Below are positions 30,880 through 33,927 of a stretch of 64,000 nucleotides of DNA, piece after piece. Each line of letters begins with the position of its first letter. Within the stretch, counting starts at the first letter, position 1. Source of the DNA: Rhodobiaceae bacterium (GTDB taxonomy: Bacteria; Pseudomonadota; Alphaproteobacteria; Parvibaculales; Parvibaculaceae); the NCBI GenBank assembly GCA_003330885.1, contig CP030277.1:2964001-3028000 (forward strand), in the 5' to 3' direction. A model generated the notes under the pieces. That model made no database searches. It was not told the origin of the DNA and worked only from the letters and a program-made list of their open reading frames with translations. The translations under genes and the position numbers were made by a program.

Positions 30880-31326
30880 CTACTCGCCGCACTCTTGCGT
30901 CAAAGCAGCTTCAGCAAGGAATCCAAGCAGCGCCTTTCGATCATCCGCGTCCTTGACACCCGCATAACCCATGAAGGTACCAGGAACTGTTCCACGCGGA
31001 TCTTCAATGAAGGAGAGAAGTTTCTCCTCTTCCCACACAAGCCCACTTGAGAGCATCGCGCCAGAGTAACGAAACCCTGGCACAGTGCCCGCCGCGCGCC
31101 CTACCACACCACACAGGCGCGGACCGGTTCGATTGCGGGCAAGCGAGTGACAGGCCTGACACCGGCTGAAAACCTTTTCGCCGAGACCTGCCTGCCCCCC
31201 CGGGGCATGCGCCACGGCCATAGAACTCGAATTGGAACTGGAACCGGCACCGGCACCGGCACCAAACAAACCCAACGCCACAGCCAGCCCCGACAGGAAT
31301 AACACAAACCTTGAATGGCCCATCAT
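30880..31326 (-). CDS. Exported class I cytochrome c
   Basis: 148 residues. The signal peptide is followed by a Gly/Ala/Ser low-complexity linker (GAGAGAGSSSNSSSM). One CxxCH heme site, CQACHSL, lies near residue 56, and the distal Met is probably in PGTFMGYAGVKDADD. The segment KVFSRCQACHSLARNRTGPRLCGVVGRAAG matches the mitochondrial-like cytochrome c2 family. The start overlaps the stop of the ferritin-like gene (ATGA), indicating one operon and probable coupling. It likely passes electrons in the periplasm. Confidence 0.92.
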   Translation of the reverse strand: MMGHSRFVLFLSGLAVALGLFGAGAGAGSSSNSSSMAVAHAPGGQAGLGEKVFSRCQACHSLARNRTGPRLCGVVGRAAGTVPGFRYSGAMLSSGLVWEEEKLLSFIEDPRGTVPGTFMGYAGVKDADDRKALLGFLAEAALTQECGE

Positions 31327-31904
31327 TCGACAAAGGCAACGGGAACAGGGTCTTCACCAAGAGCATTGCGAAGGACCGCCCAGTGCATCGCCTCGTCCCC
31401 AAGAATAGAGGCGGCAACTTTCGCAAGCCCTCGATCATCGAGAATAGGAACCGCACCGAGATAGGCACTCACCGCCCCCTTCTCAAGCCCTGCAGCAAGA
31501 CGCAACACCGCCGCTTCATCTGTCAGCTTATCGAGAGGAAAGCCATAGTCCGCGAGAGGTTCATTCGGCGTGCCGCCCAGTTTCTGTACGGTGGCAACAA
31601 GTGCCTCCGCATGCTCTTGATGGTGATCGCGAAAGCTGATGCCAAGTTTCAAAGCACCGGCAGAGAGCAACCCGCTTGCAGCACCCAGTTCATAAGCAGC
31701 AATCGCTTCATACTCTGTGGAGACCGCAGCGTTCAGTATGGCAACATCGTTTTCACTTGCCTGAGCCTCACCAATCAACGTGCGGCCGCCTGCGCCCGCC
31801 ATCATCGCGAGGGCTGCGCCAGACAACACCATCGTGCTGCCATTGGTGAGGAAGCGGCGCCTCCCCGCCACAATTGTTTTTTTGGACTTGTTCGTCTCAG
31901 TCAT
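31323..31904 (-). CDS. Tat-exported ferritin-like domain protein
   Basis: 193 residues. A twin-arginine signal (GRRRFLTNGSTMVLSGAALAMMAGAGG) predicts export in the folded state. The mature part is a four-helix bundle with EYEAIAAYELG, FRDHHQEHAEALV, and GDEAMHWAVLR, giving the Glu/His pattern of a di-iron or ferritin-like site. It is close to Ferritin_2/DUF4439-type proteins. It is followed by a cytochrome c overlapping by 4 bases and preceded by the ECF sigma fusion, so the three may form a stress- or redox-responsive operon. Confidence 0.9.
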   Translation of the reverse strand: MTETNKSKKTIVAGRRRFLTNGSTMVLSGAALAMMAGAGGRTLIGEAQASENDVAILNAAVSTEYEAIAAYELGAASGLLSAGALKLGISFRDHHQEHAEALVATVQKLGGTPNEPLADYGFPLDKLTDEAAVLRLAAGLEKGAVSAYLGAVPILDDRGLAKVAASILGDEAMHWAVLRNALGEDPVPVAFVE

Positions 31905-31996
31905 TGCCGTCTCCCGGTCAGGTGGTCATGCGGCCAAGTTGGCCGTACCCCCTTAACCCAGGCGCAGCGCGAATGGATGCGAAAGCGCAACCAAAT

Positions 31997-32908
31997 TCAT
32001 CCAAGTAAATAGATGCCCATCAGTACAAAGAATGTTGCAAGAAGCACCAGGCCATGCTGCCCCCGAAATGGCATCCCGCGACCGGCAATGGTTTCTCGCG
32101 AGATGACATCCCAGACTGCATCGCGGGGACGCACGGGCGCTAACAGGGTGAGCAGTGCGGAAAAATCGTCTGCCCATCTATCTGCAGCAGCGCAATATTT
32201 GGCATCTAAATCACGCCGTCGCTGAAAAGCCGGGGTCGCAGTGGGCGGAAGCACACCCAACTCATGTTCTGCGGCCAGAAGGTCATGAACCGCCTCACCA
32301 CGCAGATCTGTACTGTCGCCAAGACATCGCCCCATCTGATGCAGGCCTCGTCGGACCCAGCTTTTTGCTGTACCAAGCGGCACCTCCAATCGGCTGGCAA
32401 GCTCTTGATGGGTGAGCCCCTCAAAATAGACCAGGAGAAGCGCACGCTTCTTTTCCGCATCGACATTCCCAAGGCATGCCCTGACACGACGGACCCGCTC
32501 CGCTGATAATACTTTGTCAAAGCCCGAAACAGCATGCGCATCCGGGGCGTCCGCCATGTCATACCCATCATCGACAGCCGCCGACTGTCGGTGTGCTTTT
32601 GCGCCAAGTGTTCGTGCCCGGTTGCGCACCACGGTGGTAATCCAGGCGAGCGCTGTACCGCGCAAGTGGTCAAACTGCGAAGCTGACTTCCAGACACGGA
32701 TGTAACCTTCCTGCAGAGCTTCTTCAGCAAGGTCGGCACGTCCCGTCGTTCTGAGGCAAAGCGCATAGAGCCGTGGACTTGTTAGCTCATAAAGCTCTGA
32801 AAAGGCGCGGCGATCGGAGCGCGCGACGGCATGGAGGAGAGCGCGCAGTGGGTCCTGCGACGGCACTTCTGCCATATCTTCAAACATTACATCAGCGCTC
32901 TGCACCAT
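31997..32908 (-). CDS. ECF sigma factor fused to an anti-sigma-like domain and a C-terminal membrane anchor
   Basis: 303 residues from the ATG at 32908, chosen for its GGAGG site 7 bases upstream; an ATG 12 codons earlier lacks one. Region 2 (about 32-100: RAFSELYELTSPRLYALCLR...EEALQEGYIRVWKSASQFD) binds core polymerase and the -10 element. Region 4 (about 145-196: LLLVYFEGLTHQELASRLEVPLGTAKSWVRRGL) binds -35. Without a stop, residues 207-271 continue into text typical of the RskA-type anti-sigma N-domain (LLAAEHELGVLPPTATPAFQ, ADDFSALLTLLAPVRPRDAVWDVI). The protein ends in one transmembrane helix (286-302) with no periplasmic domain. The first gene of an operon with the ferritin-like and cytochrome c genes. 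Confidence 0.85.
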   Translation of the reverse strand: MVQSADVMFEDMAEVPSQDPLRALLHAVARSDRRAFSELYELTSPRLYALCLRTTGRADLAEEALQEGYIRVWKSASQFDHLRGTALAWITTVVRNRARTLGAKAHRQSAAVDDGYDMADAPDAHAVSGFDKVLSAERVRRVRACLGNVDAEKKRALLLVYFEGLTHQELASRLEVPLGTAKSWVRRGLHQMGRCLGDSTDLRGEAVHDLLAAEHELGVLPPTATPAFQRRRDLDAKYCAAADRWADDFSALLTLLAPVRPRDAVWDVISRETIAGRGMPFRGQHGLVLLATFFVLMGIYLLG

Positions 32909-33040
32909 GAGGAAGCCTCCTGTCATAGCTTCAAATAAAGGCAACTCGACCTTTACCCCTCAAATATGGGAACGGATGCATCAAAGTGCGGCCACCTTGG
33001 TGTGAAAGCACACCAAAAGGGTGCCCCTACGGCGTTTTCA

Positions 33041-33214: not shown

Positions 33215-33424
33215 ATGACAACCGGAACAGTTAAATTCTTCAACGCTTCTAAAGGCTTCGGCTTCATTGAGCCAGAAGATGGCGGCAAAGACGCATTCGT
33301 GCACATTTCTGCTGTTGAACGCGCAGGTCTCTCAACACTCAACGAAGGCCAGAAGGTCTCTTATGAGCTTGAGCCAGGCCGCGACGGCAAGTCTTCTGCT
33401 GAGAACATCTCAGTCGTCGACTAA
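33215..33424 (+). CDS. Cold-shock protein (CspA family), copy 1
   Basis: 69 residues, the standard length of a single OB-fold cold-shock domain. The RNA-binding motifs RNP1 (KGFGFIEPE) and RNP2 (DAFVHIS) are intact. It acts as an RNA chaperone in the cytoplasm. An AGAGGAA site stands before the ATG, a structured leader precedes it, and a terminator follows. The next gene is a near-identical paralogue with the same leader. Confidence 0.97.
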
Positions 33425-33717: not shown

Positions 33718-33927
33718 ATGCCTACAGGCACAGTCAAATTTTTCAACGCAACCAAAGGCTACGGCTTCATCGAGCCAGAAGACGGCAGCAAAGATGCATT
33801 TGTGCACATTTCTGCTGTTGAGCGTGCAGGTCTCTCCACGCTGAACGAAGGCCAGAAAGTTTCTTTCGAGCTGGAAGTCGGCCGCAATGGCAAGTCTTCC
33901 GCTGAGAACCTCTCGGTTGTTGAATAA
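33718..33927 (+). CDS. Cold-shock protein (CspA family), copy 2
   Basis: 69 residues, differing from copy 1 at only about nine positions (for example KGYGFIEPE versus KGFGFIEPE in RNP1). RNP2 DAFVHIS is unchanged. It has the same leader design, ribosome site AGAGGAA and individual terminator as copy 1, so the pair arose by duplication of the whole transcription unit. Confidence 0.97.

Follow-up and report, generated by a model that had tools for sequence, protein, structure and literature searches.

The 64-kb stretch of DNA analysed here (the window) holds a single reading frame that appears to encode a sigma factor and, in the same chain, its anti-sigma factor. This raises the question of whether such a protein is genuinely made from one gene and, if so, how its sigma part would be held and released when no sensor stands outside the membrane. 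The frame and its parts are as follows.

31997..32908, minus strand: fused sigma/anti-sigma gene, 303 aa, ATG start at 32908, stop at 31997
32609..32794, minus strand: sigma region 2, residues 39-100 (Pfam PF04542 Sigma70_r2, E 7.4e-14)
32342..32488, minus strand: sigma region 4, residues 141-189 (Pfam PF08281 Sigma70_r4_2, E 1.1e-10)
32075..32305, minus strand: RskA-type class I anti-sigma domain of four helices, residues 202-278 (hhalign 98.8%, E 8e-17)
32003..32065, minus strand: C-terminal transmembrane helix (tail anchor), residues 282-302 (hydropathy; AlphaFold helix with pLDDT >90)
32474..32476, minus strand: Cys145, the equivalent of SigK Cys133 (alignment to 4nqw)
32324..32326, minus strand: Cys195, the equivalent of SigK Cys183 (alignment to 4nqw)
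32192..32194, minus strand: Cys239, in helix 3 of the anti-sigma domain and specific to fusions (19/19 fused proteins, 0/69 separate anti-sigma factors)

An in-frame TTG lies 36 nt upstream of the ATG at 32908 and is the less likely start. The sigma part has the make-up of the ECF class, with sigma2 and sigma4 joined by a short linker and no sigma1.1 or sigma3, and it scores 73 bits against TIGR02937 (cut-off 42.9); both Pfam matches likewise exceed their cut-offs. Its best NCBIfam subfamily is SigK, at 131.6 bits and thus under that model's cut-off of 226, and its best solved structure is SigK as well (4nqw_A, E 1e-25). Pfam alone detected no anti-sigma domain after sigma4 of the fusion. Nevertheless, when a profile of the extension was compared with 33 anti-sigma factors of relatives over their first ~ 90 residues, hhalign returned 98.8% (E 8e-17), the best of 50 column-shuffled controls reaching 3.8%. 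The four helices of this domain in the predicted model span residues 202-217, 225-234, 236-255 and 263-278. Comparison with M. tuberculosis RskA itself is weak; a fold search with the anti-sigma domain alone gave RslA, RskA and ChrR as first matches, also weakly (Foldseek E >1, Z <=6.4), and by sequence RslA was reached at E 0.11 only. The zinc-binding motif Hx3Cx2C is absent from the extension, which has one cysteine and no histidine at the site.

Only the last 17-20 residues form a strongly hydrophobic helix (mean Kyte-Doolittle 2.48; next best 0.75). In the window fusion the stop falls 1-3 residues past this helix, and the other fusions have short tails too. RskA_C (PF10099) was not found in the fusion by Pfam and no residues are left for a periplasmic domain. 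Hence the preliminary description, which had read regions 2 and 4 of an ECF sigma factor, an anti-sigma domain and a last membrane helix in one frame with nothing in the periplasm, is borne out by Pfam, hhalign and hydropathy.

A base-call error hiding two separate genes had been put forward as what could undo this reading, as had homologues always encoded as two proteins. Neither holds. The one-frame fusion occurs in 19 genomes, some of the proteins being only ~ 40% identical, and sequencing error is rejected since 18 genomes other than that of the window (G000, one contig of 3.86 Mb) carry it. A search across alphaproteobacteria, as had been proposed, placed these genomes in two families. 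Five belong to the family of the window: G000 itself, G002 (80% identity), G005 (59%), G012 (44%) and G006 (43%). The remaining 14 belong to a second alphaproteobacterial family, f66, which is probably Reyranellaceae given that an unfused f66 sigma factor groups with a Reyranella record in the tree. Screens of 385 genomes from the class and of 398 from the phylum gave no further fusion; these samples were evenly drawn and only the top candidates per genome were scored, so that rare cases may be missed. In every one of the 78 other SigK-like loci, which come from named genomes, the sigma frame was taken to stop shortly past sigma4, on the basis of a stop 14-24 residues beyond the PLGTxKS motif in the 72 loci where the motif was matched and of frame length in the rest. 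An anti-sigma profile match was obtained in 74 of these 78 loci, most of which have the anti-sigma frame directly after the sigma frame. Two candidate fusions, from Paraburkholderia and Methylovorus, were rejected: the tblastn matches extended into the anti-sigma part, but stop codons interrupt the frames and the loci are therefore two genes.

In a tree of the sigma part (19 fused and 56 unfused rows) the fused rows occupy one side of a branch with moderate support (SH-aLRT 84), G067 being the closest of the unfused rows (support 95). The G067 locus consists of sigK, then a complete rskA with RskA_C (E 4.6e-21), then a ferritin-like gene. Since this is an ordinary sigK - rskA - ferritin-like cluster, one fusion together with the loss of RskA_C explains the facts and, as judged from the tree and the alignments, the fusion arose once and was retained in two alphaproteobacterial families. 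One could also regard the gene as the decaying remnant of a broken sigma/anti-sigma pair, in keeping with the lost periplasmic domain and with a patchy presence (4/7 genomes of the genus of the window and 14/~66 of the other genus). We regard this as very improbable: the frame is open, the motif RR-x2-DA-x2-C is invariant in the fusions, and the promoter elements and partner genes described below are conserved across both families.

The membrane helix itself is absent in two of the 19 fusions (G006 and G435) and shortened in G441; in these genomes the anchor was lost, or shortened, later. Hence the anchor is not indispensable. The two fusions that have no terminal helix lie at L005 1402-2379 (G006) and L195 1474-2451 (G435), and the one in G006 is also devoid of the second SigK cysteine.

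As regards the arrangement of the domains, an AlphaFold2 model was calculated from 77 sequences of fused, sigma-only and anti-sigma-only proteins (pLDDT 88, pTM 0.83). Its best match is SigK of the SigK-RskA complex (Z 14.7, 148/148 residues, rmsd 3.5), while RNA-polymerase-bound ECF sigma factors align over both domains only at rmsd 21-28. Given that it matches RskA-bound SigK and not the polymerase-bound sigma factors, the model is in the inhibited arrangement, an arrangement that AlphaFold may have learned from 4NQW in training. The earlier proposal of a self-inhibited, membrane-tethered sigma factor therefore fits the predicted structure, from which we infer the self-inhibition itself.

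The main rival to self-inhibition is a constitutive or growth-tuned sigma factor, in which the anti-sigma remnant stabilises or activates the sigma part and output is set by an autoregulated promoter. Indeed, RskA can activate as well as inhibit, and since some C-terminal truncations give a 'high on' SigK (PMC7509140) a fused, truncated RskA could be an activator too. Furthermore, the periplasmic input domain is lost, and activation needs two sigma cysteines (PMC7509140) that the fusions retain. However, in M. tuberculosis RskA 1-193 activated whereas truncation to 121 or 86 did not, RskA 1-85 inhibited in Yersinia, and the isolated cytoplasmic part inhibits (PMC7509140). The fusions keep the cytoplasmic part and one helix only and are thus nearer to the non-activating lengths; moreover, the four anti-sigma helices and the core residues are well conserved across both families. 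We therefore hold an activating remnant to be unlikely and retain the self-inhibited form as the preferred reading.

No separate anti-sigma gene adjoins the fused gene. The next genes on the same strand, which the preliminary description had correctly placed after it, are a ferritin-like and a cytochrome c gene, and both are predicted targets.

31323..31904, minus strand: ferritin-like protein (PF13668, E 1e-29) with a twin-arginine (RRxFL) signal; predicted target
30880..31326, minus strand: cytochrome c550-like secreted protein (CxxCH); predicted target

A ferritin-like gene adjoins 18 of 19 fusions but lies near only 4 of the 78 unfused loci (Fisher p 8e-15, with no correction for relatedness), and in 18 of 19 cases the pair of ferritin-like and c-type cytochrome genes is present beside the fusion. 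This pair lies downstream on the same strand in the family of the window but is divergent in f66, and because the order differs between families the linkage is not merely inherited gene order. The exception is G469 (L214), where the fusion is kept while the ferritin-like and cytochrome genes are gone, leaving only doubtful remnants.

Some further observations were made on the surrounding genes. Elsewhere the ferritin-like/cytochrome pair adjoins ordinary sigma/anti-sigma pairs, and the anti-sigma factors beside it at L176 5741-6367 and L177 6520-7164 end in a cupin-like domain of ChrR-type appearance, not in RskA_C. At L166 8641-10600 (G343) and L167 5616-7626 (G040) the pair adjoins ECF sigma factors that distantly match the SigK-like profile and have no detected anti-sigma domain; given these distant neighbours, ECF control over the ferritin/cytochrome module may have been acquired on more than one occasion. 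One fusion-bearing genome has a second ferritin-like/cytochrome c pair with no SigK-like gene beside it (L168 5411-6704, G104). At L004 2404-2955 (G012) and L005 2412-3038 (G006) the gene immediately upstream of the fused one, in the same orientation, encodes a DUF6306 protein. In the window, two near-identical tandem cold-shock (CSD) genes at 33215-33424 and 33718-33927 (plus strand) are transcribed away from the fused gene.

Two promoter-like elements, which the preliminary description had missed, are found at the locus and are the only copies within the window.

32954..32979, minus strand: GCATCC-N15-GGGTA, promoter-like, 46 nt before the ATG of the fused gene
31955..31980, minus strand: GCATCC-N15-GGGTT, promoter-like, in the 92-nt gap before the ferritin-like gene

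The own-gene element GCATCC-N15-GGGTA is present in 18 of 19 fusion loci (14/14 in f66, 4/5 in the family of the window). In the divergent region of f66 there are two conserved elements facing outwards, the ferritin-facing one (GCATCC-N15/16-GGGTT) being found in 12 of 14 loci. In shuffled sequence the own-gene element occurs at a rate of 7e-5 and the ferritin-facing one at 3e-4. Within the family of the window the ferritin-side element, in its GGGTT or GGGTA version, is found in G000, G002, G005 and G012, and G002, G005 and G012 carry both elements; G006 has neither exactly, although GCATCC-N15-GAGTA can be read before its ferritin-like gene. Two unfused relatives, G067 and G197, also carry the element ahead of their ferritin-like gene, and in G469 the ferritin-facing element is gone along with the ferritin and cytochrome genes.

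Since such elements precede both the fused gene and the ferritin-like gene, autoregulation and a local target are predicted. With a presumed -35/-10 assignment and a presumed pairing of this sigma factor with these promoters, it is strongly suggested that the fused sigma factor is autoregulated and that its main target is the ferritin-like/cytochrome c operon. A published SigK promoter consensus was not confirmed in the literature examined. The whole genome of the window holds five matches to the GGGTA pattern (spacers 14-16) and two to GGGTT (spacer 15). A wider regulon was considered and set aside: the four non-local GGGTA sites examined fall within genes or at their starts (Fe-S assembly genes, a pantoate-beta-alanine-ligase-like gene and others) with no pattern, and given this and a background of ~ 1 per genome no further target is claimed.

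The same linkage allows another reading, in which the periplasmic ferritin-like and cytochrome c proteins are the source of the signal and touch, oxidise or reduce the anchor or its protease, thereby reporting periplasmic iron or redox state. A near-constant linkage kept in two gene orders speaks for it. However, linkage and a common promoter element are already explained if the pair is the target, G469 has kept the fusion despite the loss of both partner genes, and the tail leaves only a few residues outside the membrane. We judge a signal from these partners to be improbable and keep the pair as predicted target.

The lack of a periplasmic sensor would place the trigger in the cytoplasm or at the membrane, and the cysteines are the obvious residues to consider. 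C145 is present in 18/18 aligned fusions and 28/30 unfused sigma factors; the same counts were obtained for C195, yet G006 was noted as having no C195. C239, also missed in the preliminary description, is found in 19/19 fusions (18 aligned and the one at L190 read directly), while the corresponding position in 69 separate anti-sigma factors is R or A and never C. In SigK the oxidation state of C133/C183 changes the SigK-RskA complex and both residues are needed for activity (PMC7509140). In anti-sigma domains of class I, helix 3 makes contact with sigma4 (PMC7406223), so that on geometric grounds C239 could plausibly be linked to the sigma4 cysteines. A three-cysteine switch in a tail-anchored, one-component sigma factor, sensing cytoplasmic redox (or metal) and opening without a periplasmic sensor or a site-1 protease, is a tentative and rather doubtful extension of this; if true, the anti-sigma domain would have gained a cysteine that acts with the two of SigK.

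Taken as a whole, the best explanation, and in our view a fairly probable one, is a tail-anchored, self-inhibited, one-component SigK/RskA switch. An ancestral sigK-rskA-(ferritin-like) cluster lost the stop between sigK and rskA together with the periplasmic domain of RskA, resulting in sigma2, sigma4, anti-sigma domain and membrane helix in one chain, kept with the ferritin-like/cytochrome c pair. The sigma part would recognise GCATCC-N15-GGGTW promoters, one ahead of its own gene and one ahead of the ferritin-like/cytochrome c operon. At rest the anti-sigma domain would occupy the space between sigma2 and sigma4 in the manner of RskA on SigK, the protein being presumably anchored by its tail in the inner membrane. 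The trigger would most likely be the thiol redox state of Cys145, Cys195 and Cys239, and the tail anchor may be cleaved by an RseP-type protease with or without a thiol change. An RseP-type M50 protease is present in the genome of the window. RseP excludes large periplasmic domains (PMC10202637) and, with this size filter removed, a fusion that has no periplasmic domain could be cut directly. Release by proteolysis or by cytosolic redox change, as proposed earlier, would thus be compatible with the three conserved cysteines and with this protease.

Membrane-anchored sigma/anti-sigma fusions form an existing class that the preliminary description had overlooked, while its reading of the architecture stood. 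Examples among the ECF sigma factors are IutY and ECF48/52/53 (PMC8999054). The closest likeness is to SigK/RskA of M. tuberculosis and Yersinia (PDB 4NQW), SigK being placed in ECF18/ECF19 (PMC7509140): the sigma part is nearest to SigK, the anti-sigma domain is of RskA type, the two sigma4 cysteines are shared and one membrane helix stands in the place of that of RskA. In contrast to SigK/RskA, the fusion is one chain and not two genes, has no RskA_C, carries an extra anti-sigma cysteine and has the ferritin-like/cytochrome c operon as its predicted target. IutY of Pseudomonas putida (ECF243) is likewise an ECF sigma factor with a membrane-bound anti-sigma factor fused C-terminally, but it acts in iron-starvation cell-surface signalling, with aerobactin as the signal and Prc and RseP as the cleaving proteases (PMC8999054), whereas the fusion described here is of RskA type with nothing extending into the periplasm. 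An anti-sigma-like extension at the C-terminus, containing one or two membrane helices, is also a feature of the actinobacterial groups ECF48, ECF52 (SCO4117) and ECF53; these differ by a zinc-finger (ZAS) domain, extensions of up to 400 residues and, in SCO4117, a periplasmic region (PMC8999054), the present fusion having neither the ZAS motif nor a periplasmic region. Compared to ECF238 (CorE), there is no cysteine-rich C-terminal domain but one cysteine in the extension. Finally, Nocardia SigK is paired with an RskA that has naturally lost its membrane and periplasmic parts (~ 80 aa remain), although there are still two genes and no anchor, and the sigma cysteines, which the fusions keep, are lost there (PMC7509140).

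The groups of SigK are not listed in a review's table of ECFs with regulatory extensions (PMC8999054), and in the literature searched, with the ECF reclassification judged through that table, we found no report of an RskA-type fusion that has no periplasmic part. What appears to be new is therefore an RskA-type sigma/anti-sigma fusion without a periplasmic sensor, along with its promoter-like elements and the fusion-specific C239. For SigK/RskA, the repeated loss of the outer part of RskA in different lineages has led to the argument that SigK may be a sensor in its own right (PMC7509140). The natural fusion isolates this question: it has no outer part, retains both sigma cysteines, has a third one in addition, and comes with a predicted target promoter. 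It would suit a test of cytoplasmic sensing, self-inhibition and direct intramembrane release in one protein.
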